From Kineosporia babensis (GTDB taxonomy: Bacteria > Actinomycetota > Actinomycetes > Actinomycetales > Kineosporiaceae), in assembly GCF_021129305.1 (NCBI RefSeq), contig NZ_JAJOMB010000006.1, positions 1 through 64,000 of the forward strand: 64,000 bases of DNA. Direction: 5' to 3'. The notes beneath the pieces were generated by a model. The model saw nothing but the letters and a program-made list of their open reading frames with translations. It ran no database searches and was not told the DNA's origin. A program made the translations under genes and the position numbers. Numbering within the stretch: the first letter of the stretch is position 1; each line of letters begins with the position of its first letter. This document shows positions 1,824 through 62,413 of this stretch, piece after piece.

Positions 1824-2075
1824 TCTGGATCTCTCTCCGGCGGAGTAGGGGATGGGGGCTAAAACCTGCACGGGAGAACGTAAGGGGCGCTGGAGAGTGG
1901 CTGGAGTGCGCTGAAGCCACAGCTCATCGGGCGTTTGACGGCTCTTGCTACCTGCGAGTTGCCTTGTTTGGGTAGGTATTCCGACGACATGGCGATGGAT
2001 GACGCTCTACGGTTGAGTCGCGGGGGCGGGTGTTCTGCGCATTGACATCTGGTCATGACAACAGGGGGATGCAGG

Positions 2076-3443
2076 GTGGGTGAGCACAACGGCGTCCAGA
2101 TCGAGTCGCTGGGGCCGCTTCTGGTGCGGATCGGTGAGCGGCGGCAGGGCATCAGCGCACCGATGGAACGGGCGTTGCTGGCGTTGCTCGTGGTCAAGGC
2201 CGGTCGTCTGGCCACGAGCGAATGGCTGATCAACGGTCTGTGGCCGGACGAGAAAACCCGTCCGGAAACAAAGAACACCCTGCAGACGTACGTTTCGCAC
2301 CTACGTCCAAAATTGGAACCGGAGCGTCAAGCGGGCCAGCCGTGGCGGGTGTTGCGCCGCGAGGCCAACGGCTACCTTCTTGACGTTGGTGCCCTCGACG
2401 TCCATGCGTTCGAAACCCAGGTGGACAAGGGAACGTCACTGCTGCGCGCCGGACAAGCCATGGAGGCGGACGAGGCGCTGACCGCTGCCCTGGGTCTGTG
2501 GCGTGCGGACGAAGCCTTCACCGATGTCACGCAGCCCGAGCCCGACCCGGTCCGGACAATGATCGACGAGCTGGCCCGCAAACGTCTGGGGGCCGTCAAG
2601 ACTTGGGGCCAGGCTCGCATCGACATAGGCCGGGGCGAAAGCGTTCTGACGGAGCTGGGCAGCCAGCGGGCACTGCATCCGTACGACGAGGATCTCGTGC
2701 GGCTGTCGATGCTGGCCCTGCAGCAATGCGGGCACACAGCCGAGGCGCTGCGGTTGTACGACGCAACCGCACGGGCATTCGCGGAGGAGCTCGGTGTGGA
2801 CCCGGGGAAAGGACTGTGGGAGGTCCATCGGAAGATCCTCCAGGCCCCGACGGTGGCGGACCCTGTGCACATTCCCGAAGGTCCACCGCGTCCACCGGTT
2901 GCCGCCATCCCGCCCCGTCGAAAAGGAGCCTTGGTCGCGGCATCCGCTGCGTTCGTCGTTGTCCTGGGGGTTCTGGGGTTCAGCACCATGCGGCCGGAAC
3001 AGGCCGATGACCTGAGCGGATCAGACGAGCTCTACTCCACGCTGAATCTGGAGATGCTGCCGGGGAATGCGCACGACCTGGACGTCGTCTCGTGGGAAGA
3101 GACGCTTCTGCCTGGGGGTCAGCCGATCGGTTCTCCCGAGTCCAACCGCGGTGATCTGTACCGCCAGAAGGAAGTGAAGGACCGGTTGAGCGGGTGGCCG
3201 ACGACACTCGAAGGCTCCGGCGGCTTCAACACCTTCCAGCCGCTGAGCCGGGACAAGGACGTTACCGATTGCCGCAACATCCCGGACTCGGGGCAGGGCA
3301 ACGCCGATGTTGTGACGCTCCGGGAGGGGGACAAGTTCTGCGTGCACACCCACGAGGGGCGCTGGGCGCTGGTCACCATCACGGGTTTGCCAGGAGCCCC
3401 GGGGGCACCGCTGCTCGCCGAGGCCAAGGTCCTGCCCCTGTAA
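2076..3443 (+). CDS. Membrane-anchored SARP/BTAD transcriptional regulator with extracytoplasmic C-terminal domain
   Basis: The N-terminus carries an OmpR-type winged helix (~residues 10-95, e.g. MERALLALLVVKAGR, WLINGLWPDE, LQTYVSHLRPKL). It is followed by a bacterial transcriptional activation domain of TPR-like helices (~105-245, ending FAEELGVDPGKGLWEVHRKIL). A Pro-rich linker leads to one transmembrane helix (~283-306, GALVAASAAFVVVLGVLGF). About 145 residues outside follow, with two Cys (TDCRNIP and KFCVHTHEGRWALVTITG). SARPs are normally soluble, so this ToxR-like layout suggests direct signal sensing across the membrane. GTG 2076 has AGGGGGA six bases upstream; an ATG at 2055 has none, so 2076 is preferred. 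The ligand is unknown. Confidence 0.88.
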   Translation: MGEHNGVQIESLGPLLVRIGERRQGISAPMERALLALLVVKAGRLATSEWLINGLWPDEKTRPETKNTLQTYVSHLRPKLEPERQAGQPWRVLRREANGYLLDVGALDVHAFETQVDKGTSLLRAGQAMEADEALTAALGLWRADEAFTDVTQPEPDPVRTMIDELARKRLGAVKTWGQARIDIGRGESVLTELGSQRALHPYDEDLVRLSMLALQQCGHTAEALRLYDATARAFAEELGVDPGKGLWEVHRKILQAPTVADPVHIPEGPPRPPVAAIPPRRKGALVAASAAFVVVLGVLGFSTMRPEQADDLSGSDELYSTLNLEMLPGNAHDLDVVSWEETLLPGGQPIGSPESNRGDLYRQKEVKDRLSGWPTTLEGSGGFNTFQPLSRDKDVTDCRNIPDSGQGNADVVTLREGDKFCVHTHEGRWALVTITGLPGAPGAPLLAEAKVLPL

Positions 3444-3465
3444 GGGCCCGCGGTGTAGACGTTTC

Positions 3466-3504
3466 GTCAGGAAGCACCCGCGTCCCGTCAGGGTCCCGTC
3501 AAGG
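3466..3504 (+). promoter_or_regulatory. Triple GTCA direct repeat, site 1 (before half-racemase gene)
   Basis: GTCAGG at 3466, GTCAGG at 3487 and GTCAAGG at 3498 are spaced 21 and 11 bp. The last repeat ends 82 bp before the GTG start at 3587. The same 21/11 layout recurs before kdp, before the gene at 60477 and at 62040. An 11-bp step between direct repeats is typical of tandem OmpR-fold proteins (response regulators, SARPs). Confidence 0.75.
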
Positions 3505-3586
3505 CCGGATCCATGCTCGCCCAGAGGCTCGTTACTGGGGTGTCGGCGCCCATCGGGGCGCGCAGTTCTGGGAGAGAAGGTCGGCA

Positions 3587-3985
3587 GTGGGAACCATCGG
3601 ATTGCTCGGCGGGACGAACTGGTCGGAGACCGCGCGCTACTACCGTCTGGCCAAGGAGATCATCCGTCAGCGGCCCGAAGGTGGCCGTCTGCTGCTGGAC
3701 TGGGTGGACGACCACGAACTGGAGTATCTCCAGGTGACCGTGGAGTGGGACGCGGCCGCTGCGATGCTGGTCGAGCGGTCCCAGTCGATGCTGGAGGGCG
3801 GCGCGGGAGCGATCGTGCTGTGCGGCAGTCTGCACCCGGAAGTGAGCTGGCGGGTGATGCGGGCGCTGACCGTACCCGTCGTTGCGCTGCACGAGGCCGG
3901 CACGCAGGAGGACGTAGCGGCGGCGCTGCGGCAGGTCTCCGCTCTGCTCCCGGGTGCACCCGCAGCAGGGCAAGGAGCTCGGTAA
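3587..3985 (+). CDS. Half-length Asp/Glu racemase-family protein (132 aa)
   Basis: The start TIGLLGGTNWSETARYYRL matches the N-terminus of aspartate/glutamate racemases, and GAIVLCGSLHPEV keeps the first catalytic Cys (C79) in its usual context. Family members are about 230 residues with two similar halves, each giving one Cys. This protein stops after the first half, so it cannot form the usual two-base active site alone. It might dimerise, bind a ligand without racemising it, or be a decayed remnant, though the reading frame is clean. GTG 3587 is chosen because GGAGAGAAGG lies six bases upstream; the longer open frame upstream overlaps the preceding gene. A GTCA-repeat operator lies in front and a strong terminator follows, so it is probably a single-gene unit. 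Confidence 0.75.
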   Translation: MGTIGLLGGTNWSETARYYRLAKEIIRQRPEGGRLLLDWVDDHELEYLQVTVEWDAAAAMLVERSQSMLEGGAGAIVLCGSLHPEVSWRVMRALTVPVVALHEAGTQEDVAAALRQVSALLPGAPAAGQGAR

Positions 3986-4032
3986 AGATTAGTTTCTGGG
4001 GATCGCCCATTTCTGGTGTGAACCGGGCGCCC

Positions 4033-4070
4033 GAGGGCCGGGTCGGAGCACTGCCTCCGGCCCGGCCCTC
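4033..4070 (+). terminator. Strong intrinsic terminator hairpin
   Basis: Arms GAGGGCCGGG (4033-4042) and CCCGGCCCTC (4061-4070) pair perfectly and enclose a second short stem CGGAG/CTCCG. It separates the half-racemase gene from the kdp promoter region. Confidence 0.8.
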
Positions 4071-4089
4071 CGTCGTTTGCAGGCCAGGT

Positions 4090-4139
4090 GTCAAGAAGCT
4101 GTCGGAAACGCCCCCGCACCCGTCAAGGACCCGTCAACG
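4090..4139 (+). promoter_or_regulatory. Quadruple GTCA direct repeat, site 2 (kdp promoter region)
   Basis: GTCAAG (4090), GTCGG (4101), GTCAAGG (4122) and GTCAACG (4133) are spaced 11, 21 and 11 bp. This is two 11-bp pairs on the same face of the helix, ending 88 bp before the first start codon of the kdp operon at 4228. KdpE, encoded at the end of this operon, is an OmpR-family activator that normally binds upstream of kdp, so it is the leading candidate ligand. The nearby SARP is an alternative. Confidence 0.75.
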
Positions 4140-4227
4140 CATCTGTTCTCGCGCGCGGCGAGGCGGTGTGCTTCTCAGCGGGCCGGCTCCGAAGCCGGAA
4201 CGCACATTCGAACTGTGAGGGATAGCA

Positions 4228-4311
4228 GTGCTTGATCTGGCTTATCTGGTGCTGACAGTGGCGCTGTTCGGCGCTCTGGCGCTGATCGTGCGGGGAGTGG
4301 AGCGGCTGTGA
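4228..4311 (+). CDS. 27-residue single-span membrane peptide leading the kdp operon
   Basis: GTG 4228 opens a tiny frame, [20 protein letters not shown] followed by VRGVERL, which is one hydrophobic helix with a positive tail. AGGG sits a few bases upstream. Its stop overlaps the GTG start of kdpF (GTGA), so the two are translationally coupled. It is too short for standard gene callers. Its place and shape suggest a second small helper of the KdpFABC complex, next to KdpF, or a coupling leader. I believe similar short peptides precede kdpF in other bacteria, but that needs a search. Confidence 0.65.
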
Positions 4312-4397
4312 CCATCGTCAACCTGGCCGGTCTCGTCATCGCTCTCGGCCTGACCCTGTTCCTGCTGGCTGCTCTGCTCTTCCCGGAGAAATTCTGA
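4308..4397 (+). CDS. kdpF: KdpF, small stabilising subunit of the K+ pump
   Basis: This 29-residue frame (GTG 4308) is one transmembrane helix ending in ALLFPEKF, the hallmark C-terminus of KdpF. KdpF sits beside KdpA in the membrane and stabilises the KdpFABC complex. It overlaps the upstream mini-gene by GTGA and the kdpA start by TGATG, so all are translated in a chain. Confidence 0.93.
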
Positions 4398-6058
4398 TGG
4401 ACTCGACCACTGCGGGCGTCATCTTCGTGGTGTCGCTCGTCGTCGTGCTCGCCGCCGTGTACCGGCCGGCCGGCGACTACATGTACCGCGTCTTCACCGG
4501 GACGAAGCACTCCCGGGCCGAGCGCGGTATCTACAAGGTGATCGGGGTCGACCCCGAGGCCGAGCAGCCCTGGGGCGTCTACGCCCGCAGCGTGCTCGCC
4601 TTCTCGGCGATCTCGATCGTGTTCCTGTACCTGTTCATGCGGCTGCAGGGCCGGCTGATGCTGTCGCTCGGTTTCGACAGCCTCACCCCGGAACTGTCCT
4701 GGAACACCGCGGTCAGCTTCGTCGCCAACACCAACTGGCAGGCCTACTCGGGTGAGTCGACCATGGGCCACCTGGTGCAGATGGCCGGCCTGGCGGCGCA
4801 GAACTTCGTCTCGGCCGCGGTCGGTATCGCCGTGTGCGTAGCCCTGGTCAGGGGTTTCGCCCGCAACCGCACCGAGCACCTGGGCAACTTCTGGGTCGAC
4901 CTGACCCGGATCTGCCTGCGCATCCTGTTGCCGGTCGCGACCGTGGCCGCCATCGTCTTCATCGCCGCCGGTGCGGTGCAGAACTTCTCCAGCAGTGACG
5001 AGATCAGCACGCTGGCCGGTGGAACACAGACCATCCCGGGCGGCCCCGCGGCCAGCCAGGAAGCGATCAAGCTGCTGGGCACCAACGGTGGTGGCTTCTG
5101 GAACGTCAACAGCGCCCACCCGCTGTCCAACCCGACGGCGTGGACCAACTGGATTCAGATCTTCCTGATCCTGCTGATCCCGGTGGCCATGCCCCGGGCC
5201 TTCGGCCGGATGGTCGGCAGCAACAAGCAGGGCTACGCGATCATCGCCGCGATGAGCGTCATCGCCCTGGCCAGCATCTTCCTGCTTAACCTGAGCAACG
5301 GCCTGGGCGCCAACACGGTCCCGGCCGCGGCGGGAGCGGGTACCGAGGGCACTGAGACCCGTTTCGGGGTACTGAACTCGGCGACGTTCGGGGCGGCGAC
5401 CACGCTGACCTCGACCGGTGCGGTGGACTCGTTCCACTCCTCGTACTCGTCCTTCGGTGGCGGTCTGACGATGCTGAACATGATGCTCGGCGAGATTGCG
5501 CCCGGTGGAACGGGTTCCGGCCTGTACGGGATGCTGATGCTCGCGGTCATCACGGTGTTCGTGGCCGGCCTGATGGTCGGGCGCACACCGGAGTACCTGG
5601 GCAAGAAGATCAGCTCGCGGGAGATCAAGTTCGCCTCCCTGTACCTGCTGGCCACCCCCGCCCTCGTCCTGGTCGGCACCGCGATCGCGATGGCCAACCC
5701 CACCGCCCGCGAGTCCATGCTCAGCAGCGGCGCTCACGGGTTCTCCGAAGTGCTGTACGCCTTCACCTCCGCGAGCAACAACAACGGCTCGGCGTTCGCC
5801 GGTCTGAGCGCGAACACCGGCTTCTACAACACCGCGCTGGGGATCTGCATGCTGCTCGGACGGTTCCTGCCGATCATCTTCGTGCTCGGCCTGGCCGGTT
5901 CGCTGGCCGCACAGAAGCCCACGCCGGAGTCCGCGGGCACGCTGAAGACTTACCAGCCGCTGTTCGTCGGGATGCTGGTCGGCGTGGTCGTGATCGTCGT
6001 CGCCCTGACCTTCCTGCCGGCGCTGGCCCTGGGGCCGATCGCCGAAGGCCTGAGCTGA
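4397..6058 (+). CDS. kdpA: KdpA, K+-binding and channel-like subunit
   Basis: This is a 553-residue polytopic membrane protein of the SKT superfamily and forms the K+ entry path of the KdpFABC pump. Filter-loop segments are visible: [22 protein letters not shown], and the [19 protein letters not shown] stretch. These match the repeated pore loops of the family. Length is normal (E. coli KdpA ~557). The ATG overlaps the kdpF stop. Expression should follow the promoter with GTCA repeats at 4090-4139. A 639-residue frame lies on the opposite strand here but is a high-GC shadow. Confidence 0.98.
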
Positions 6059-6078: not shown

Positions 6079-8211
6079 ATGAGTACTGCGACAACCGAAC
6101 GCCCCCAGGCGCAACCCAATCCGCCAGAAGGGGTCAAGAAGAAGGTCGGCGGAGGCCTGCTGGACCCCAAGCAGTTGTGGATCTCACTGCCGGACGCCCT
6201 GAAGAAGCTCGACCCGCGCACCCTGTGGCATAACCCGGTGATGCTGATCGTCGAGATCGGCTCGGTCTTCACCACCGTCCTGGCGATCACCGACCCGTCG
6301 GTGTTCGCCTGGGTGATCACCGTGTGGCTCTGGCTGACCGTGGTCTTCGCCAACCTGGCCGAAGCCGTGGCCGAGGGCCGGGGCAAGGCGCAGGCCGACA
6401 CCCTGCGTAAGGCCAAGCAGGACACCGTTGCCCGCAAGCTCGCCCACTGGAAGCCCGGAGCCAACGTCCTCGACGAGACGACCGTCGGGGCAACGGAACT
6501 CAAGCTCGGCGACTTCGTGGTGGTGGACGCCGGCGAGGTGATCCCCGGGGACGGCGAGGTCGTGCAGGGCATCGCCAGTGTCGACGAGTCGGCCATCACC
6601 GGTGAGTCGGCCCCGGTGATCCGCGAGTCGGGCGGTGATCGCTCGGCGGTGACCGGTGGCACCCGGGTGCTTTCGGACCGGATCGTCGTGCGGATCACCC
6701 AGAAGCCGGGTGAGAGCTTCGTGGACCGGATGATCGCCCTGGTCGAGGGCGCGAACCGGCAGAAGACGCCGAACGAGATCGCGCTGAACATCCTGCTGGC
6801 CTCGCTGACCATCATCTTCCTGATGGCGGTGGCCACCCTGCAGCCGATGGCGATCTTCGCCGTCGGAGAGCAGGGTTTCGGTACCGACGACGCGGTGCTG
6901 AACGCCAACGGCGTCACCGGGATCGTCCTGGTGAGCCTGCTGGTCTGCCTGATCCCGACCACGATCGGCGCGCTGCTGTCGGCGATCGGGATCGCCGGCA
7001 TGGACCGGCTGGTGCAGCGCAACGTGCTGGCCATGTCCGGCCGCGCGGTCGAGGCCGCGGGCGATGTGAACGTCCTGCTGCTGGACAAGACCGGAACCAT
7101 CACCCTGGGCAACCGCCAGGCCAGCGAATTCGTCCCCGTACATGGCGTTTCGGTAGCCGAGCTGGCCGATGCGGCGCAGCTGTCCAGTCTGGCCGACGAA
7201 ACGCCCGAGGGCCGCTCGATCGTGGTGCACGCCAAGTCCGCGCACGGCCTGCGCGAGCGGGAGATCCACGACGCGACCTGGATCGAGTTCACCGCCCAGA
7301 CCCGGATGTCGGGAGTGGACGTGGACGGCCGGGTCCTGCGCAAGGGCGCCACTTCGTCGGTCACCGAGTGGGTGCGCTCGAACGGTGGACGCATCCCGGA
7401 CGATCTGAAGGGGATCGTCGACGAAGTTTCCTCCGCGGGTGGAACCCCGCTGGTGGTTGCCGAGGAGAGCCGGATCCTGGGGGTGATCCACCTCAAGGAC
7501 GTGGTCAAGAACGGGATGCGCGAGCGGTTCGACGAGATGCGCCGGATGGGCATCCGCACGGTGATGATCACCGGCGACAACCCGCGCACCGCCGAGGCGA
7601 TCGCCAAGGAGGCCGGGGTCGACGACTTCCTGGCCGAGGCCACCCCGGAGGACAAGCTCGCCCTGATCCGGCGCGAGCAGGAGGGCGGCAAGCTGGTCGC
7701 GATGACCGGTGACGGCACCAACGACGCGCCGGCTCTGGCCCAGGCCGACGTGGGCGTGGCGATGAACACCGGCACCGCGGCCGCGAAAGAGGCCGGGAAC
7801 ATGGTGGATCTGGACTCCGACCCGACCAAGCTCATCGAGATCGTCGAGATCGGCAAGCAACTCCTGATCACCCGCGGCGCGCTGACCACGTTCTCGATCG
7901 CCAACGACATCGCCAAGTACTTCGCGATCATCCCGGCCATCTTCGCCGCGGTCTACCCGGGCCTGGACACCCTGAACATCATGCGGCTGGACAGCCCCAC
8001 CTCGGCGATCCTGTCCGCGGTCGTCTTCAACGCGATCGTGATCGTCGCGCTGATCCCGCTGGCCCTGCGCGGGGTGCAGTACCGGCCGTCCGACGCCGCC
8101 ACCCTGCTGCGCCGCAACCTGCTGGTCTACGGACTCGGCGGCATCATCACCCCCTTCGTCGGCATCAAGCTCATCGACCTGCTGATCTCGGCCATCCCCG
8201 GAATCTCCTGA
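6079..8211 (+). CDS. kdpB: KdpB, P-type ATPase catalytic subunit
   Basis: This 710-residue P1A-type ATPase energises K+ uptake. Visible motifs in order: transmembrane pair near residues 50-95, the actuator loop with ITGESAP, the phosphorylation site [10 protein letters not shown] (Asp336), [13 protein letters not shown], and the hinge [22 protein letters not shown]-terminal group of membrane helices follows. The N-terminus has a somewhat long hydrophilic leader (~30 residues, rich in Pro/Gln/Lys). It lies 20 bp after kdpA and 12 bp before kdpC, with a clear ribosome site (GAGGATCTGAG). Confidence 0.98.
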
Positions 8212-8223
8212 GGAAGAACGAAA

Positions 8224-9081
8224 ATGCGTATTCCATCGTGGATCGGCCAGCACCTCGCCGCCCTGCGGCTGCTGCTGGTGATGACCGTGATCCTGGGGGT
8301 GGCCTACCCGCTCGTCGTGACGCTGGTGGCCCAGATCCCGGGACTGAAGAGCAAGGCCGACGGCTCGCTGCTGGAGGAAGGGGGCACGGTCGTGGGCTCG
8401 TCCCTGATCGGCCAGTCCTTCACCGACGCGGACGGCAACGCCCTGCCGCAGTACTTCCAGTCCCGTCCCTCCGCCGCCGGCGACGGCTACGACCCGCTGT
8501 CCACCAGTGCGTCCAACCTCGGTCCGGAAGACGTCGTGGACACCCTGAGCACCGACGAGGAGAACGCCTCGCAGAGCCTGCTCACTCAGATCTGCTCGCG
8601 CAGCCTGGCCGTGGGTGAGCTGGAAGGTGTGGACGGCTCCCGGCCCTACTGCACGGCCGGAGGCGTGGGCGCGGTTCTGGGCGTCTGGTACTCGGACGGC
8701 GCGACCGGCACGGTCACCCGGGTGGTCAGCCTGAACGAGACCGGAACGCCGTTCCTGAGCACCTACGAGGGGATTCAGGTCGAGGCCGCCGAGCCTGACA
8801 CCGAGTACACCGGCTACGTCGCCGAGCCGATCAGGGGCGCGGCCCCGGACCGCCCGCAGGTGCCGGCCGACGCGGTCACGGCCAGCGCCTCCGGCCTGGA
8901 CCCGCAGATCAGCCCGGACTACGCCGAGCTGCAGGCGCAGCGGGTGGCCCAGGAACGCGGGCTGGACGTGGCCGAGGTGGAGAGCCTGATCCAGGAGTAC
9001 ACGACCGGCCGGTCGCTGGGCTTCATCGGTGAGTCGGGCGTGAACGTGCTGGAACTGAACCTGGCTCTGGACCAGGCGTAA
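8224..9081 (+). CDS. kdpC: KdpC, accessory subunit
   Basis: KdpC holds KdpA and KdpB together and raises ATP affinity. One N-terminal membrane helix (~14-35, LRLLLVMTVILGVAYPLVVTL) is followed by a periplasm-side domain with the family signatures LIGQSFTDADGNALPQYFQS and RPSAAGDGYDPLSTSASNLG. The C-terminal part has SPDYAELQAQRVAQERGLD and RSLGFIGESGVNVLELNLAL. At 285 residues it is longer than the ~190 of E. coli KdpC. The extra sequence lies in the middle (~100-220), a size I would expect in actinobacteria. Confidence 0.97.
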   Translation: MRIPSWIGQHLAALRLLLVMTVILGVAYPLVVTLVAQIPGLKSKADGSLLEEGGTVVGSSLIGQSFTDADGNALPQYFQSRPSAAGDGYDPLSTSASNLGPEDVVDTLSTDEENASQSLLTQICSRSLAVGELEGVDGSRPYCTAGGVGAVLGVWYSDGATGTVTRVVSLNETGTPFLSTYEGIQVEAAEPDTEYTGYVAEPIRGAAPDRPQVPADAVTASASGLDPQISPDYAELQAQRVAQERGLDVAEVESLIQEYTTGRSLGFIGESGVNVLELNLALDQA

Positions 9082-9095
9082 GGAGCGGGAGACAA

Positions 9096-11702
9096 GTGGC
9101 CGGCCAGCTGCGGGTGCACCTAGGGGCTGCCCCCGGTGTGGGTAAGACGTACAAGATGCTCGAAGAAGGGCACCGGCGCCGGGAACGGGGCACGGATGTC
9201 GTGGTCGGGTACGTCGAGACCCACGGCCGGGAGCAGACCGAGGCGATGATCAAGGACCTCGAGGTGCTCCCGCGGCGGACCGTCCACTACCGGGGGACCA
9301 CCTTCACGGAGATGGACGTGGACGCGGTGATCGCCCGGGGGGCCGAGGTGGTGCTGGTGGACGAGCTGGCCCACACCAACGTGCCGGGCTCGCGCAACGC
9401 CAAGCGCTGGCAGGACATCGAGGAACTGCTGGACGCCGGGATGACGGTGATGACCACGGTCAACGTGCAGCACCTGGAGTCCATCAACGACATCGTCCGG
9501 CAGATCACCGGAGTCCCACAACGCGAGACGGTGCCGGACGAGGTCGTGCGCCGGGCCGACGCCATCGAACTGGTCGACATGGCGCCGGAGGCGATCCGGC
9601 GGCGGATGGCCCACGGCAACATCTACAAACCCGAGAAGATCGACGCGGCCCTGGGCAACTACTTCCGGGTCGGCAACCTGACCGCCCTGCGCGAGCTGGC
9701 CCTGCTGTGGCTGGCCGACAAGGTCGACGACGAACTGGAGAACTACCGGGCGGCCCAAGGGATCTCCGACACCTGGGAAGCCCGGGAACGGGTGCTGGTG
9801 GCGCTGACCGGAGGCCCGGAGGGCGAGACGCTGATCCGCCGGGCCGCCCGGCTGGCCAGCCGATCCCGGGGCCCACAGCCCACGGACCTTCTGGCCGTGC
9901 ACGTGGCCCGTAACGACGGCCTCAGCAGCGGCGGCAGCCACGCCAACCTGGTGGCGCAGCGCACCCTGGTCGAGGACCTCGGCGGCACGTACCACCAGGT
10001 GGTCGGCAACGACATCCCCAAGGCGCTGCTCGCTTTCGCGAAGGGGGTCAACGCCACCGAGCTGGTGCTCGGGGTCTCCCGTCGGGGTCGGCTGCAGTCG
10101 CTGTTCTCTCCCGGCGTCGGGGTCACCACCACCAACGGCGCCGGCAGCATGGACGTCCACCTGGTCACTCATGCCCAGGCCCGCAAGGGCCGCGCCCTGC
10201 CCAAGGTACGCAACGCCCTCAGCGCCAATCGCCGGGTGGCCGGGTTCCTCCTGGCGACCATCGGCATCGCCGTGCTCACGGTCCTGCTGGCCCAGCTGCG
10301 CGAGCAGATCTCCCTGGACAGCGACGTCCTGCTGTACCTGGCCGCGGTGGTGATCGTGGCCTTGGTCGGCGGGCTCTGGCCGGCCCTGGTGGCGGCCCTG
10401 CTGGGTACGGTCGCGCTGAACTACTACTTCGCCCCACCGATCCACCGGATCACGATCGCCGCCTGGGAGAACATCCTGGCTCTGGCCGTGTTCCTGATCG
10501 TGGCGGTCGCGGTGAGCGCGACCGTCGACCGTGCCGCCCGGCGCACCCGGGAAGCAGCGAGCGCCCAAGCGGAGGCCGAAACCTTGTCCACGCTCGCCGG
10601 GAACGTGCTGCGCGGCGCCCAGCCGTTGCCCGCCCTCCTGAACCAGCTCCGCGAGACCTTCAACTTCAACGGCGCCACGCTGCTGCAGCGCAGACCCGAT
10701 GCCGGCCCCAGCCCGGACCTGCAGCACGACCGGGATGCCTGGCACGTGGTCGAGTCAGTCGGCCGGACCCTGTTCGCCCCGGGGGAGGGCGATGCCGAGG
10801 TACAAGTGGACGAGACGGTGTCGCTCGCGTTGTGCGGTCATCCTTTGGCGGCCGAGGACCGGCGGGTGGTGCAGGCTTTCGCCAATCAGGCCGTGGTCGC
10901 GTTGCGGCAGCAGGAGCTGAGCGAGCAGGCCGCCGCGGCCGGACCGCTGGCCGAGGTGGACCGGATGCGCACGGCCCTGCTCTCAGCGGTCAGCCACGAT
11001 CTGCGCACCCCGCTGGCCTCGGCCAAGGCCGCGGTCGGTGGCCTGCGGGCGCCGGGGATCGAGTTCAGCCCTGAGGATCAGGCCGAACTGCTGGCCAGTG
11101 TGGAGGAGTCGTTGGACCGGCTGACCCGGCTGGTGGACAACCTGCTGGACATGAGCCGGCTGCAGGCCGGCGCGCTGGCCATGCACCCGCAGCCGACCAG
11201 CATTGCCGAGACGGTGGCGATCGCCCTGGACGAGATCGGGTCGCCGGCCAAGGACATCGAGGTGCATCTTCCGGAGGAGTTCCTGGAGGTGCACGGCGAT
11301 CCGGTGCTGATCGAGCGGGTGCTGGTGAACCTGCTGCGCAACGCCCTGCGGTACTCACCGGACGACTCGCCACCGATGATCATGGTGAGTGCTCACGCCG
11401 GGGAGGTGGAGACCAAGGTCATCGACCGCGGGCCGGGTATTCCCATCGAGAAGTGGGAGGACGTCTTCCTGCCGTTCCAGCGTCTGGGCGATCGGGACAA
11501 CGGCACCGGGGTCGGTCTCGGCCTGGCTCTGTCCCGAGGGCTGGCCGAGGCCATGGGTGGCAGCCTGACTCCGGATGTGACGCCCGGTGGGGGACTGACC
11601 ATGGTCATGACCCTGCTGCAGTCGGGCCCTCTACCGGAGACCGAACTCGAGACCCAGAGTAAGCAGGCCTTCGTGGGCGACCCGCAGGCCGGGGCATCGT
11701 GA
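9096..11702 (+). CDS. kdpD: KdpD, K+/turgor sensor histidine kinase
   Basis: An 868-residue membrane kinase. It has the N-terminal KdpD domain with the ATP-binding LGAAPGVGKTYKMLEEGHR, then a universal-stress-like domain (~250-365), four transmembrane helices (DUF4118, ~385-490), a GAF-like stretch, and a kinase core with phospho-accepting His634 in SAVSHDLRTPLASAKA. The ATPase domain has N-box LLRNALRYSP and G-boxes DRGPGIP and GVGLGLALSRGL. It phosphorylates KdpE when K+ is limiting. GTG start with GGGAGA upstream, 14 bp after kdpC; the stop overlaps the kdpE start. Confidence 0.97.
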   Translation: MAGQLRVHLGAAPGVGKTYKMLEEGHRRRERGTDVVVGYVETHGREQTEAMIKDLEVLPRRTVHYRGTTFTEMDVDAVIARGAEVVLVDELAHTNVPGSRNAKRWQDIEELLDAGMTVMTTVNVQHLESINDIVRQITGVPQRETVPDEVVRRADAIELVDMAPEAIRRRMAHGNIYKPEKIDAALGNYFRVGNLTALRELALLWLADKVDDELENYRAAQGISDTWEARERVLVALTGGPEGETLIRRAARLASRSRGPQPTDLLAVHVARNDGLSSGGSHANLVAQRTLVEDLGGTYHQVVGNDIPKALLAFAKGVNATELVLGVSRRGRLQSLFSPGVGVTTTNGAGSMDVHLVTHAQARKGRALPKVRNALSANRRVAGFLLATIGIAVLTVLLAQLREQISLDSDVLLYLAAVVIVALVGGLWPALVAALLGTVALNYYFAPPIHRITIAAWENILALAVFLIVAVAVSATVDRAARRTREAASAQAEAETLSTLAGNVLRGAQPLPALLNQLRETFNFNGATLLQRRPDAGPSPDLQHDRDAWHVVESVGRTLFAPGEGDAEVQVDETVSLALCGHPLAAEDRRVVQAFANQAVVALRQQELSEQAAAAGPLAEVDRMRTALLSAVSHDLRTPLASAKAAVGGLRAPGIEFSPEDQAELLASVEESLDRLTRLVDNLLDMSRLQAGALAMHPQPTSIAETVAIALDEIGSPAKDIEVHLPEEFLEVHGDPVLIERVLVNLLRNALRYSPDDSPPMIMVSAHAGEVETKVIDRGPGIPIEKWEDVFLPFQRLGDRDNGTGVGLGLALSRGLAEAMGGSLTPDVTPGGGLTMVMTLLQSGPLPETELETQSKQAFVGDPQAGAS

Positions 11703-12367
11703 CCAAGATCCTTCTGGTGGACGACGAGCCTCAGATGATCCGGGTCCTGCGGATCAACCTGCTGGCTCGCCAGTACGAGGTGGTCAGCGCCGCCACCGGC
11801 CTCAGCGCCCTGGAGTCGGCCCGGGAGGATCACCCGGACATCGTCGTTCTCGATCTGGGGTTACCGGATCTGGACGGTGTCGAGGTGATCCGTCGGTTGC
11901 GCCGGTGGACCTCGGTACCGGTGATCGTGCTGTCCGGCCGTTCCGACAGCCGGGACAAGGTGAACGCTCTGGACGCCGGCGCCGACGACTACGTGACCAA
12001 GCCGTTCAGTGTGGACGAGCTGCTGGCCCGGATCCGGGTGGTGGCCCGTCGCCAGGGGCCTCCGCAGGCCGAGAACACCGTGAAGATCGGGCAGTACGAG
12101 ATCGACCTGGTCAGCCACACGGTCACCCCTGGCGACGTGCACCTGACCCGGACCGAGTGGCAGCTGCTGGCTGTCGTGGTGGCCGAGCCGGGCATCCTGC
12201 TGAGCCAGCGCTACCTGCTGGAGAAGGTCTGGGGACCGACCTACCGGGAAGAGACCCAGAACGTGCGCCAGTACATGGCCCAGCTGCGCCGCAAGTTGGA
12301 GAGGGATCCGACCCGGCCGGTGCATCTGATCACCGAGCCAGGTATGGGTTATCGCTTCCAGCCCTGA
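11699..12367 (+). CDS. kdpE: KdpE, OmpR-family response regulator
   Basis: A 222-residue regulator with a receiver domain (acceptor Asp52 in VVLDLGLPDLDG, conserved Thr/Ser and Lys in DYVTKPFSVDELLARI). The C-terminal winged helix has LTRTEWQLLAVVVAEPGILL, RQYMAQLRRKLERDP and TEPGMGYRFQP. It overlaps kdpD by GTGA. It is the expected activator of the kdp promoter and the likeliest binder of the 11-bp GTCA repeats. A deleted second copy of a related gene survives at 62139-62225. Confidence 0.97.
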   Translation: MTKILLVDDEPQMIRVLRINLLARQYEVVSAATGLSALESAREDHPDIVVLDLGLPDLDGVEVIRRLRRWTSVPVIVLSGRSDSRDKVNALDAGADDYVTKPFSVDELLARIRVVARRQGPPQAENTVKIGQYEIDLVSHTVTPGDVHLTRTEWQLLAVVVAEPGILLSQRYLLEKVWGPTYREETQNVRQYMAQLRRKLERDPTRPVHLITEPGMGYRFQP

Positions 12368-41710: not shown

Positions 41711-43800
41711 CAGTCTTCCTTCTTCGGGAGCCGGTTCAGGTGCAGGTTGCCCGCGGTGTCCACCCGGACCTGCCAGCCCGGTGGCACCAGCACACTGGTG
41801 TCGGCGCGCTCGACCACGGCCGGGCCGTTCAGTTCGGCCGGGGCCTCGGGATCGGTCACCACGGCGAGAACGTCGGCTTCGCTCCAGGCCTGGGAGGTAC
41901 GCAACCGGCGCCGTCCCAGCTTCTGCAGACCGAGCGTGCCACCGGCGTCCTCAATGGAGAGGTCTTCGGCGGTCAGGGTCAGGCGGACGGTCTCGATCAG
42001 CACCTCGGCCGCCGGGTCGACGAAACCGTAGTGCCGGCGGTGAGACTCGGCGAACGCGGCCAGGCCGGCTTCCAAGTCGATCGAGAGCGCCGACTGCAGG
42101 CCGCCGGTGGTCAAGGGGACGGTGAGCGTGGACGGTTGCCCGGCGTACTTCAGGTCAGCGCTGAGCACCAGCGAACCCCGGGCGCCCGCGCCTTCTTTCT
42201 GGAACCAGGTGAGGGCCTCGTCGGTGAGCTGATGAGTGACGTCGGTCAGTTCCGGAAGGCTGTCGGCGTCCAGGGCCAGCCGGGCGGTGCGCACGAAGTC
42301 GCGGCGCACCGGGGTGATGGCGGCACCGAGCGCGCAGAACGTGGCTGCCGCGGCGGGCACGATGATGCGTTCGGCGCCCACCTCGTCGGCCAGGAGCGCG
42401 GCGTGCGAACCGCCCGCGCCACCGAAGGCCACGAACGTGAACCGGTCCGGTACCTCGCCGTGCCGGGCCAGCACCGTGCGCAGGCGGCTGGCCATGCCCA
42501 CGGTCGCGAGGGTCAGGGCGTTGTCACTGGTCTTCGTGGCGGCTTCCGGACCGGCGGCCGGGTCGAGGGCCTGCTGCACGCGGGTCAGGGCAGCATCGGC
42601 CAGCTCTCGCGACAGCGGCATCGCGCCGCCGAGGAACGCGTCCGGGTCGATGATCCCGGTGTGCACGTAGGCGTCGGTGATCGTGGGCTGGTCGCCGCCG
42701 CGGCCGTACGCAGCCGGGCCCGGATCGGCACCGGCACTGGAAGGGCCGACGCGCGGGGTGGGGTGGGCGCCGTCCAGGTCGGCCCAGACCACGGAACCGC
42801 CACCGGCGCCGATGGCCGTCACCTCGACGACCGGCGTCACCAGCGGATGGTCGCCGACCGAGGCGGTGGTGGTCAGCGCGGGCTTGCCGCCGACCAGAAC
42901 CCCGATGTCGCTGCTGGTGCCACCCATGTCGATGGTCACCATGTCCAGCCCGGGCCACAACCGCGAGGCCGCGCCGACCCCGGCGGCCGGGCCGGACAGC
43001 ACGGTGTCGATGGGGCGGCGCGCGGCCGAGCTCAGCGACACCGAACCGCCGTTGGAGGTGGTGATGTACAACGGCGCGGTCAGGCCGATCCGCTGCAGCG
43101 CCGCCTCCAGCCGGGACAGGTATCCCTGCATCAGCGGCGCGATCTGGGCGTCCAGCACCGCCAGCGCCGTGCGTTCGTACTCGCCCGCCTCCGGCCACAG
43201 CGTGGCGGCCGAGGTGACCGGCACGCCGAGATCGGCGGTGAGGCGCTCGGCCAGGTCACCCTCGGCGGCCGGGCTGGTGTAGGCGCCGATCAGGCTCAGC
43301 GCCACGGCATCGGGGCGAGCCTGCTGCAGCTCGGCCAGTGCCCTGGCGTAGTCGTCCACCCCCGAGACGGCCTCGCCGGAGGGCGTGAACCGGGCCTCCA
43401 GCTCCACCACCCGGTCCCGCGGAACCGCCGCGCGGGGCGGCACGGCGTGCAGGTCGAACGAGCGCGGCAGCCGGGCCCGGCCGATCTGCAGGATGTCGCG
43501 GTGCCCGGCGCTGGTCAGCAGCGCCACCCGGGCGCCCCGGCCCTGCAGGATCGCGTTCAGGCCGATCGTGGTGCCGTGGGTGACCGCCAGCACGTCCTGC
43601 GCGGCGATGCCCCGCTCGAGCAGTTCCCGCAGGCCCTGCTCGACGGCCGCGGCCGGGTCGGAGGGCACCGAGGGCGTCTTGTGCCGGACGGACTCGGCCG
43701 GGCGGCACCCGCCGGCGGTGGTCTGCACGGCGATCAGGTCGGTGAACGTGCCGCCGACGTCGATGCCGATGCGCCAGCCGGCCGCCTGGGATTCAGTCAT
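41710..43800 (-). CDS. HyuA-type ATP-binding subunit of hydantoinase/oxoprolinase
   Basis: 696 residues. GIDVGGTFTDLIAVQTTAGG is the phosphate-binding start of the family; VTIDMGGTSSDIGVLVGG and FVAFGGAGGSHAALLADEVG are further ASKHA-type ATP-binding segments. It phosphorylates the cyclic amide to prime ring opening. It follows the permease genes with an 11-bp gap. Together with an imported-substrate ABC system and an amidase, it suggests use of an external cyclic amide or imide as a nitrogen source. Confidence 0.95.
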   Translation of the reverse strand: MTESQAAGWRIGIDVGGTFTDLIAVQTTAGGCRPAESVRHKTPSVPSDPAAAVEQGLRELLERGIAAQDVLAVTHGTTIGLNAILQGRGARVALLTSAGHRDILQIGRARLPRSFDLHAVPPRAAVPRDRVVELEARFTPSGEAVSGVDDYARALAELQQARPDAVALSLIGAYTSPAAEGDLAERLTADLGVPVTSAATLWPEAGEYERTALAVLDAQIAPLMQGYLSRLEAALQRIGLTAPLYITTSNGGSVSLSSAARRPIDTVLSGPAAGVGAASRLWPGLDMVTIDMGGTSSDIGVLVGGKPALTTTASVGDHPLVTPVVEVTAIGAGGGSVVWADLDGAHPTPRVGPSSAGADPGPAAYGRGGDQPTITDAYVHTGIIDPDAFLGGAMPLSRELADAALTRVQQALDPAAGPEAATKTSDNALTLATVGMASRLRTVLARHGEVPDRFTFVAFGGAGGSHAALLADEVGAERIIVPAAAATFCALGAAITPVRRDFVRTARLALDADSLPELTDVTHQLTDEALTWFQKEGAGARGSLVLSADLKYAGQPSTLTVPLTTGGLQSALSIDLEAGLAAFAESHRRHYGFVDPAAEVLIETVRLTLTAEDLSIEDAGGTLGLQKLGRRRLRTSQAWSEADVLAVVTDPEAPAELNGPAVVERADTSVLVPPGWQVRVDTAGNLHLNRLPKKED

Positions 43801-60319: not shown

Positions 60320-60355
60320 GTCACGGGAAATCGAGCCTCTCGAGGTAACGATCTT

Positions 60356-60394
60356 GTCAGGATCGGTGGTCCGGGCGTCAGAAATGTGTCAAGG
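60356..60394 (+). promoter_or_regulatory. Triple GTCA direct repeat, site 3
   Basis: GTCAGG (60356), GTCAGA (60377) and GTCAAGG (60388), spaced exactly 21 and 11 bp as at site 1 and site 4. The last repeat ends 82 bp before the ATG at 60477, the same distance as between site 1 and its gene. Confidence 0.75.
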
Positions 60395-60476
60395 CGCATG
60401 ATCCGGCAGCAGATCGGCGGTTCACTGCTCGAACCTCCCGGAAGGCGGAGCGGATGGAGCACCGAAGGAAACGATC

Positions 60477-60887
60477 ATGGGCGCGGCTATGCCGTTCGAG
60501 CCGGACGGCCCCAACCACGAATTCCAGCAGAATGTGACGGTTCCCGAGCCCCGATCGTCCTCTGAAGCCCGAGAGCCCACCCACTGGGGAATTGAGTTCG
60601 TGGCTGGAGCTCTCATCATCGTGACTGCGGCTCTGTTCGCAGCTCGCCTGCCGTCGTCGGCCAGCGAAGCTCGCTGTCTGGTCGTGGCTTTCGCCGTGAT
60701 GGCGGTGGCCGGGTGCAGTCGCGACCTTCTGACCCTGCTGTTTCTGGTGCCGACAGCCGGGGCGCTGGTCAGCGGATTTCTGGTCGGCGGGCCGGACACG
60801 CTGGTGTGGTGCCTGGCCGCCCTGACTGTCGCTGCGCTGGCCGGGCGGGCTGCCGGGCGGTTTCTCAGAGCCAGTTCCGCTTCTTGA
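60477..60887 (+). CDS. Small four-helix membrane protein, resembles the KdpD membrane domain
   Basis: 136 residues: a ~35-residue hydrophilic N-terminus, then four hydrophobic segments (FVAGALIIVTAALFAARL, CLVVAFAVMAVAG, LLTLLFLVPTAGALVSGFLV, LVWCLAALTVAALAGRAAGR). Spacing and the basic end recall the four-helix DUF4118 domain in the middle of KdpD, but there is no kinase part. The likeness is topological and not proven. AAGGAAA stands six bases before the ATG. A GTCA-repeat operator like that of kdp lies upstream. Its last 23 bp overlap the convergent corA gene. Confidence 0.75.
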   Translation: MGAAMPFEPDGPNHEFQQNVTVPEPRSSSEAREPTHWGIEFVAGALIIVTAALFAARLPSSASEARCLVVAFAVMAVAGCSRDLLTLLFLVPTAGALVSGFLVGGPDTLVWCLAALTVAALAGRAAGRFLRASSAS

Positions 60888-61911
60888 ACGTGTGATGCAG
60901 GGCCACGCCCGAGCCCACCATGAGCAAGAGCGAGAAGGGATACCCGAGCTGCCAGCCCAGTTCGGGCATGTGCTCGAAGTTCATCCCGTACACCGCTGCG
61001 ACCAGCGAAGGCGCGAAGAAGATGGCCGCCCACGACGAGATCTTCTTCACCTCCTCGTTCTGGGCGTAGCTGGCCTCGGTGAGGCGCTCGATCTTCTCGT
61101 TCTGCAGGGTCGCTGTGTTGGTGTTCCGCACCGTCAGCACCCCTTGGTAGAAGTCGATGACACCTTGCAGGTATTCGCGTTCACCGTCGGCGAGTTGGCG
61201 GACCCGGGTGAACTGCTCGGCGTTCTCCGTGATCAGCGGTGCCCCCTCGGCCGGCAGGCCGGGCAGTGAAGCCAGTCGTCCGTAGATCGCCCCGCTGAGG
61301 GCAGCCATGGTCCGCACCGCCAGCAAGCCGTGCCGAACCTGGAACAGATCCTCGAGGAAGATCTCGGGTTCGCTGACTCGGCCGCCGGTGACCTGCTGTT
61401 CCAGGCGCCAGACGTCAGCTGTGGCCTGCTCGATGTATTCCTCCTGATTGCGGGTGACCTCGGAGACGATGGCGTGCGAAAGGGCGATCGCCGAACCAGC
61501 TGTGAACCGCCTGGCCGCCAGACGCTTCAGCACAGCCCGGGTCTCCCGTTCGGCCGTGGCCGCCGTAACCGCCGGATTCACCGGACCGTGCACCGTGACC
61601 AGGAAGCCGTGGCCGATGAACAGGTCGAGTTCGAGGTAGTGCACATGCCCGCGGTCGCCGCGCTCGGGAGCGTGCAGGACCACGAGGATGACGTCGGTGT
61701 AAGCGTGCATCTTCGGGACACGGTTACGTTCCAGCGCGTCCTTGACCGCCAGAGGATGGAACTGGAACACCGACTCCAGCACGTTCGCCGTACGTGGGTC
61801 CTCGGCCTGGGCGTCGACCCAGACGAACCCGTCGGATCTTTGCCGCAGCACGGCAATGTCTCCGGGTTCGTGCTGATGGATGCCGTCGACGGTGATCAGG
61901 TGCACGTTCAT
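60865..61911 (-). CDS. corA: CorA-family divalent cation transporter
   Basis: 348 residues from ATG 61911 (MNVHLITVDG); starts at 61926, 61968 or 62025 are open too, none with a clear ribosome site. A long cytoplasmic domain (DGFVWVDAQAEDPRTANVLE, FQFHPLAVKDALERN) leads to two C-terminal membrane helices with the selectivity motif YGMNFEHMPE. CorA channels carry Mg2+ or other divalent ions. It lies between two GTCA-repeat sites, though on the minus strand. Confidence 0.93.
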   Translation of the reverse strand: MNVHLITVDGIHQHEPGDIAVLRQRSDGFVWVDAQAEDPRTANVLESVFQFHPLAVKDALERNRVPKMHAYTDVILVVLHAPERGDRGHVHYLELDLFIGHGFLVTVHGPVNPAVTAATAERETRAVLKRLAARRFTAGSAIALSHAIVSEVTRNQEEYIEQATADVWRLEQQVTGGRVSEPEIFLEDLFQVRHGLLAVRTMAALSGAIYGRLASLPGLPAEGAPLITENAEQFTRVRQLADGEREYLQGVIDFYQGVLTVRNTNTATLQNEKIERLTEASYAQNEEVKKISSWAAIFFAPSLVAAVYGMNFEHMPELGWQLGYPFSLLLMVGSGVALHHTFKKRNWL

Positions 61912-62039
61912 CGCCCCAGCATGCATGATCGTCCGTCGGATATCAGCTTGCTGGGGAGAATGTTTCATTGATTCTACGCGAAAGATACTGCACTTATGAT
62001 GACTCTGGCATGCTCTGACAGGCATGAGCGGACGATTCG

Positions 62040-62078
62040 GTCAAGATCCGTGGATTTGCTGTCAGGAATCTGTCAAGG
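62040..62078 (+). promoter_or_regulatory. Triple GTCA direct repeat, site 4
   Basis: GTCAAG (62040), GTCAGG (62061) and GTCAAGG (62072), again 21 and 11 bp apart. About 60 bp further on begins the kdpE-like relic, so this may be the promoter of a lost gene; it could also serve corA (minus) or the toxin gene. Confidence 0.75.
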
Positions 62079-62138
62079 GGTCTTGTAGCGGAGTTCTTTT
62101 GGTGCTCTTCCCCGCCCGGGCTGGAAGGGTCGTGCGGG

Positions 62139-62225
62139 CCTTTCAGTGTGGACGAGTTGCTGGCCCGGATCCCGCCCGCGCATCTGCTCACCGAGCCGGG
62201 CATGGGTTACCGCTTCGAACCCTGA
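62139..62225 (+). pseudogene. Internally deleted relic of a kdpE-like response regulator gene
   Basis: In one frame the strand reads PFSVDELLARI, a short PPA junction, then HLLTEPGMGYRFEP and a stop. The first part matches KdpE residues just after its conserved Lys (PFSVDELLARI) and the second its last 14 residues (HLITEPGMGYRFQP). About 95 codons between them and the whole receiver start are gone. Near-identical wording at both ends shows descent from kdpE or a close paralogue. Confidence 0.85.
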
Positions 62226-62262
62226 ATCCCATCGAAACGGTCAGCCTCGCCACTGGTTTCGT

Positions 62263-62327
62263 TGACAAGTCTCTGACGATCGTGGGAACGATCTCACTGA
62301 TCTGCTGCATTTTGACGGCGCTCTGAC
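62263..62327 (-). promoter_or_regulatory. Two 11-bp GTCA pairs on the minus strand
   Basis: On the plus strand TGAC occurs at 62263, 62274, 62313 and 62324, i.e. two minus-strand pairs GTCA-N7-GTCAA, 11 bp apart within each pair. The third, 21-bp-distant repeat seen at sites 1-4 is missing. They lie 87-150 bp before the toxin gene. Confidence 0.45.
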
Positions 62328-62413
62328 AGTTGTTAGCGAAAGCACGTGAATGGTGGCTGTTCATCGGCAAATTCGGCGAACCTTCAGCGCGGTCGCCGAC
62401 GTTGCAAACGTTT

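Follow-up and report, generated by a model that had tools for sequence, protein, structure and literature searches.

The region upstream of the kdp operon of Kineosporia babensis carries an element of four direct GTCARG-like repeats (R1–R4) spaced by 11, 21 and 11 bp. Judged by sequence comparison, it is very probably the operator of KdpE and is further referred to as the KdpE box. The stretch analyzed here, called the window, comprises positions 1–64000 of contig C56 of a 9.4-Mb genome (G000) assembled in 89 contigs. KdpE and its role were already known, as were the 11-bp repeat pair in Escherichia coli and Mycobacterium smegmatis and the wide KdpDE response of Mycobacterium tuberculosis. As far as we searched, the four-repeat architecture, the fixed −10 box, the class-wide consensus and the boxed genes beyond kdp are new: no earlier report of a four-repeat KdpE box was found in the open-access literature, subscription papers being outside the search.

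Four sites are located in the window (Table 1). The original prediction, made from the window alone, described an operator of three GTCA repeats spaced by 21 and 11 bp; all the repeat starts that it gave for the four sites were verified, including GTCG in the kdp site. The extra upstream repeat, which it reported at 4090 only, is indeed present there but has counterparts at 3455 and 60345 as well and is missing at 62029. Hence the positions and the spacing hold, but the operator contains four repeats rather than three, occurs at eight rather than four places in the genome and represents a class-wide motif. The predicted distances to the start codons were also confirmed, 82 bp for two sites (from 3504 to GTG at 3587 and from 60394 to 60477) and 88 bp for the kdp site (from 4139 to GTG at 4228). 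The pattern GTCA-N17-GTCA-N7-GTCA with at most one mismatch has five matches in the window, that is, the four sites and position 42491, compared to the mean of 0.37 and the maximum of 2 in 100 shuffles of the window. Pairs of the searched form with the 11-bp period are found six times, four of them within the boxes, versus about 0.5 expected (at most 2 in 20 simulated sequences). A search of the whole window against Rfam yielded no matches at gathering scores.

Table 1. Predicted KdpE boxes, putative −10 boxes and associated genes in the window
Feature	Position	Strand	Remarks
Predicted KdpE box of the half-racemase gene	3455..3504	+	Repeats at 3455 (GTAG), 3466, 3487, 3498
Putative −10 box GTTACT	3531..3536	+	33 bp from the start of the last repeat; offset as in the 52 named boxes and the C33 copy
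Half-racemase	3587..3985	+	132 residues if GTG at 3587 is the start; NF007569, PDB 5hqt
Predicted KdpE box of kdpFABCDE	4090..4139	+	Repeats at 4090, 4101 (GTCG), 4122, 4133; counterparts before kdp in the genus
Putative −10 box TGTGCT	4167..4172	+	Offset shared with the copies at C33 kdp and C12 kdpD
Hydrophobic 27-residue ORF (named KdpF1)	4228..4311	+	Unannotated, directly before kdpF
kdpF	4308..4397	+	PF09604 and TIGR02115 over cut-off
kdpA	4397..6058	+	PF03814
kdpB	6079..8211	+	E1-E2 ATPase and HAD domains
kdpC	8224..9081	+	PF02669
kdpD, sensor kinase	9096..11702	+	PF02702, DUF4118, HisKA
kdpE, proposed binder	11699..12367	+	PF00072 and PF00486; E. coli KdpE (4kny), E = 8e-60
Predicted KdpE box of the small membrane protein gene	60345..60394	+	Repeats at 60345 (GTAA), 60356, 60377, 60388
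Putative −10 box TTCACT	60421..60426	+	33 bp from the start of the last repeat, 60388
Small membrane protein	60477..60887	+	136 residues, four hydrophobic stretches
Three-repeat predicted KdpE box	62040..62078	+	Repeats at 62040, 62061, 62072; first repeat missing, no clear −10
kdpE relic	62139..62225	+	Like KdpE 102–112, then directly like KdpE 206–222
Two extra 11-bp GTCA pairs	62266..62327	−	62327/62316 and 62277/62266, towards corA

The spacing was assessed without any model by counting the distances between GTCA words on the coding strand in the 500 bp preceding 80 named kdpA genes, in which GTCA as such is frequent (2.4 to 3.2 occurrences per 500 bp). The peaks are at 32 (35 loci), 11 (21), 43 (18) and 21 (11), whereas the distances one bp to either side of them occur in 0 to 3 loci. 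In the kdpB control the distances 32, 11, 43 and 21 were found 0, 0, 0 and 1 times, and its own peaks are multiples of three, e.g. 42 (15) and 48 (10). On the opposite strand before kdpA, the distance of 11 is also frequent (17) and that of 32 is not (2). In nine of the 80 kdp loci the reverse-strand model score exceeds the scores of shuffles, which fits boxes facing a divergent gene.

The whole genome was scanned with the strict pattern GTCRRRA-N14-GTCARR-N5-GTCAA, the same pattern read backwards serving as a control. All seven exact matches fall at kdp-type loci, and the control produced none. One more match, with a single mismatch (C12:171276), precedes a kdpD, giving eight sites in the genome. 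When two mismatches were allowed, 13 matches were obtained versus 11 in the control; therefore only the first eight carry weight. Four exact matches are those in the window, at kdpFABCDE, the half-racemase, the small membrane protein and the kdpE relic. The other three are on contig C33, which ends inside kdpB, at one further copy each of kdpF-kdpA-kdpB, the half-racemase and the small membrane protein. Thus the box recurs at all three gene types of this copy, although the proteins have diverged (60–77% identity to those of the window outside KdpB, and 93% for KdpB). The second kdp operon seems to be split over contig ends, with kdpFAB at the start of C33 and the end of kdpD together with kdpE at the start of C6; a third kdpD-kdpE pair is on C12, where no match to kdpA was found in the two 3-kb pieces inspected. 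The C33 copy (L017) also contains, interspersed with its boxed genes, an NhaA-type Na+/H+ antiporter gene (L017:5531-6892) and one for a DUF389 membrane protein (3872-4750). No exact box points at either of them, and the longest DUF389 frame starts within the kdpF box on the opposite strand.

Exact matches were found in 5 of 13 genomes of the family, namely in five of six from the genus and in none of seven from other genera, counted irrespective of the presence of kdp. In four other genomes of the genus, six strict matches stand at kdpF-kdpA (three), kdpD, a half-racemase gene and a kdpF-like start (one each), the latter being close to a contig end and identified by eye; G005 of the same genus has none.

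Further, 394 genomes of the class were scanned. The strict pattern was found in 20 of them and a relaxed four-repeat pattern in 29, the backwards control giving zero in both scans; the sites of the window itself do not conform to the relaxed pattern, and the two scans share seven sites. Of 31 relaxed matches, 30 were examined: 19 are before kdpA, five before kdpD, four at KimA-like genes (three of which diverge from a KdpD-like kinase gene) and two at neither. Strict matches outside G000 (19 in total) are located at kdpA (nine), KimA/kinase pairs (three), KimA (one), kdpE (one), two similar uncharacterised genes and the gene of a small membrane protein, with nothing evident near the last two; that is, two lack a K+ gene and three more precede uncharacterised genes. 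Genes were named KimA by comparison with PDB 6s3k (E = 3e-120 for L049 and 2e-101 for L118). More KimA-looking genes lie downstream of boxes in Streptomyces and Kitasatospora loci, L049 being the only one of these compared with 6s3k. Early gene picks near boxes came from a rough frame picker and were used only where a later search agreed. In two genomes of one family (L129 and L130), a strict box precedes mutually similar proteins (39%), whose assignment as PhoU-like was dropped when the Pfam search gave no match. Look-alike small membrane proteins were seen by eye behind boxes in Streptomyces (L063:9012-9548) and in L133 (1579-2001); neither has a match in Pfam.

Under a position model built from the strict matches, 64 of the 80 named kdp loci score higher than any of 400 shuffled upstream regions, the shuffles preserving base composition only. 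The combined model, partly trained on the same 80 loci, finds a box in 67 of them; in 1.53 Mb it gives 102 matches versus 0 reversed at score 14, and 118 versus 1 at score 10. In 13 to 16 of the 80 loci no clear box in forward orientation lies within 600 bp, the box of L038 being at −601.

To describe the promoter, 52 distinct boxes with the model score above 9 were taken from the named kdp loci; the −10 columns lie outside the search model. The only strong downstream columns are T at +33 to +35 and T at +38 relative to the start of R4 (T at +34 in 47 boxes), and they outline a TTTNCT-like −10 box starting 33 bp after the R4 start. No conserved −35-like hexamer was found downstream of the box in this set. 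In the genome itself, TGTGCT, GTTACT or TTCACT occurs at this place, displaced by no more than one base, in the boxes of kdp, kdpD, the half-racemase and the small membrane protein; at the 62040 site there is no −10-like match at the fixed offset. R4 ends about 26 bp from the putative −10 box. If the latter is placed rightly, R4 would start near −45 and the downstream pair would end at about −39, which would be typical of an activator making contact with polymerase at a weak promoter. The 5'-leaders of kdp (approximately 4180–4225 in the window, and its C33 counterpart) seem by eye to contain a GC-rich hairpin, its sequence differing between the two.

By far the best candidate for the binder is KdpE with its OmpR-type fold, as the original prediction suggested, and the sites mark a K+ regulon. 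KdpD (PF02702) is encoded in 27 of the 29 genomes from the relaxed scan versus 234 of 394 overall (p = 3e-5); the remaining two (G269 and G110) encode KdpE (55 and 58% identity) on the contig that carries the box. Among the 20 genomes from the strict scan, 16 have KdpD, two more have KdpE (G172, 55% identity, on the box contig; G152, 59%, on another contig), and G020 and G045 have neither, the best KdpE identity being 43 and 42%, respectively. The G045 match, with no K+ gene nearby, is probably due to chance. G020 is a real exception, as its box stands before a KimA-like gene and no KdpE exceeds 43% identity. The genome studied here encodes three KdpE proteins, two of them 86 and 84% identical to that of the window and with nearly the same recognition helix.

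KdpE from M. smegmatis binds CCGTAAAGAAACCATCAAGGCC in EMSA, a sequence that extends an 18-bp footprint (PMC5401905). This 22-mer consists of two repeats 11 bp apart and agrees with the pair of the box. Its exact form occurs in none of 248 sampled genomes of that genus, and one genome has it with one mismatch; there, GTAAAGG stands exactly 21 bp upstream of the 22-mer. We infer that in this relative the published site corresponds to the R3–R4 pair, a further repeat being undescribed. In L045 both pairs resemble the published one. The M. smegmatis site is similar to the box as an activator site before kdpF, with repeats GTAAAG and ATCAAG 11 bp apart, for a regulator of the same family in the same class; however, the accessible text presents it as a single 22-bp motif that does not noticeably resemble other KdpE motifs and mentions neither a second pair, nor a consensus beyond mycobacteria, nor targets beyond kdp (PMC5401905). 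The E. coli KdpE site, as far as described in the accessible part of the report, also has the 11-bp period (two 6-bp direct repeats 5 bp apart), and the two arginines that this report names in the recognition helix are kept in KdpE of the window; in contrast, that site is AT-rich (TTTATA/TTTACA) and comprises a single pair within −72 to −50 (PMC3264566).

It is rather unlikely that KdpE, though the right regulator, acts through the downstream pair alone while the upstream one binds something else or serves a second start. One 22-bp pair is reported to be enough for M. smegmatis KdpE in vitro (PMC5401905, accessible text), so the second pair may be dispensable, and the upstream half of the 62040 site is imperfect. 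Yet conservation is about equal in the upstream and downstream repeats, and the two halves are in phase: GT is found in R1–R4 of 48, 51, 50 and 52 of the 52 boxes (chosen with the model). Moreover, R1 is absent from the strict pattern, yet this position has G in 25 and T in 25 of 32 strict matches (own genome, genus and class).

Use of the motif by another OmpR-family regulator, of the PhoP, MtrA or RegX3 type, seems very improbable. The 11-bp repeat period is general in the OmpR family. It has been reported for PhoP (PMC4832192, in part accessible), and a search of the genome with KdpE at E = 1e-20 gives 20 matches, including KdpE. However, the motif tracks kdp and KimA genes, with no other exact match in the genome, and the pair pattern is the one bound by M. 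smegmatis KdpE (PMC5401905, accessible part). In addition, four of six matching genomes without KdpD have KdpE of 55–59% identity, in three of them on the box contig.

The SARP/BTAD protein encoded next door (2055–3443) was the alternative binder and activator in the original prediction. Its gene lies upstream of two window sites, it has an OmpR-type DNA-binding domain plus BTAD, and SARP sites are direct repeats spaced by 11 or 22 bp (PMC10936776, accessible part). The boxes of these regulators (afs box) thus share with the KdpE box direct repeats, the 11-bp period and the fold of the binder; they differ, according to the accessible parts of the reports, in the repeat sequence, the −10 distance and the middle spacing, and other KdpE boxes have no linked SARP gene (PMC10936776, PMC10972967). 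A SARP-like match is found in only one of the 80 named kdp loci (some of them short), being 31% identical and 8.6 kb away, and in the C33 copy, which has three boxes, a search of 16 kb revealed no SARP match. The KdpE box has a middle spacing of 21 rather than 22, and the last repeat of SARP sites is 8 bp from the −10 box (PMC10936776, accessible part), whereas here the distance is about 26 bp if the −10 box is placed rightly. The linkage is true only in this window and the promoter geometry differs; we rejected this protein as the binder, its involvement being still less probable than that of a PhoP-type regulator. Finally, chance or compositional coincidence is a practically negligible explanation of the repeats: GTCA words are common and the match at 42491 looks like chance, but the backwards control is empty in 394 genomes in both scans, and the model-free spacing peaks and the conservation contradict it.

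With KdpE as the predicted binder, a KdpE dimer would occupy each 11-bp pair, and the box would thus hold two dimers on the same face of the DNA, separated by three helical turns (32 bp). Of the two pairs, the downstream one would end just upstream of the −35 place, with the TTTNCT-like −10 box at a fixed distance, and phosphorylated KdpE would recruit RNA polymerase to a promoter lacking a good −35 box. At low K+, KdpD would phosphorylate KdpE, which would then co-activate two copies of kdpFABC, the orphan kdpD, two half-racemase genes and two genes of small membrane proteins. Low-K+ activation is reported for KdpE in M. smegmatis; in the accessible text, the kdp promoter of that species is assigned to SigF, not to the −10 box proposed here (PMC5401905). 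In M. tuberculosis, according to the accessible part of the report, the loss of kdpDE raised kdpFABC in the presence of K+, which its authors ascribe to repression by KdpE (PMC12210973); hence the KdpE switch may not be purely activating. The wide response of this species is comparable to a regulon of the kind proposed here, 128 genes being lower without working kdpDE at K+ depletion and 85 of them only then; however, the accessible part reports expression only and describes no operator, and many effects may be indirect (PMC12210973).

Aspartate/glutamate racemases have two domains and two catalytic cysteines. The half-racemase matches only residues 3–122, approximately, of these proteins of about 230 residues (NF007569, E = 3e-17, below the cut-off; PDB 5hqt, E = 1e-14). 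It is not a full racemase, as one cysteine motif is left in its 132 residues, read from the sequence. Its three copies, 60–100% identical, are all boxed, and none of nine other racemase-like loci has a box in about 3 kb; hence full-length racemases were rejected as members of the regulon. As a guess, the half-racemase could be a sensor of glutamate, the counter-ion of K+. The 136-residue membrane protein has no match in Pfam or NCBIfam; its second copy, on C33, is 61% identical, and none was found in 12 other genomes of the family. It was considered as a detached sensor domain of the KdpD type (DUF4118), but shows no significant match to KdpD 371–620 or to two kinases from other genomes. The assignment to the regulon relies on three copies for the half-racemase and on two for the small membrane protein.

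A lost kdpE-like gene does stand behind the 62040 site, as originally predicted; the second stretch of similarity in the relic was found by alignment and the first one by eye. Since R1 and a clear −10 box are missing, the site is probably what remains of a kdp or kdpE locus that has been lost. The region 61900–62400 combines the start of a corA-like gene, the plus-strand box, the two minus-strand GTCA pairs and the relic in about 500 bp. The gap between the minus-strand pairs is 39 bp, and they do not form a standard box. The corA gene may be, or may formerly have been, under KdpE.

The box provides a genome-wide signature for KdpE targets in the class, including Streptomyces and mycobacteria. 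It predicts control of KimA-type transporters by KdpE in several lineages; in S. venezuelae, nine putative K+ transporters including KimA homologues are listed, none experimentally studied by the time of a 2023 review, as its accessible part states (PMC10117811). The signature could also separate direct from indirect targets where the KdpE response is known only from transcripts, and it points to the half-racemase, the small membrane proteins and an unannotated peptide before kdpF. A wider picture can be offered tentatively, with odds against it as a whole: actinomycete KdpE would control more than one operon and head a K+ regulon through a two-dimer, four-repeat operator at Kdp, KimA symporters, its own sensor genes and accessories; in this lineage the latter would include a non-catalytic half-racemase that could link K+ uptake to the counter-ion glutamate, and the 27-residue ORF would encode a second membrane subunit of Kdp.

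Counterparts of this ORF, KdpF1, were detected with a position-based filter in 76 of the 80 named kdp loci (L037–L116), mostly overlapping the kdpF start. Three versions of it had no match in Pfam or NCBIfam, while kdpF matched. The distance between the stop codons of KdpF1 and kdpF equals 86 bp in 67 of the 76 loci, and the median dN/dS of KdpF1 is 0.64 in frame versus 0.93 and 1.14 in the other frames.
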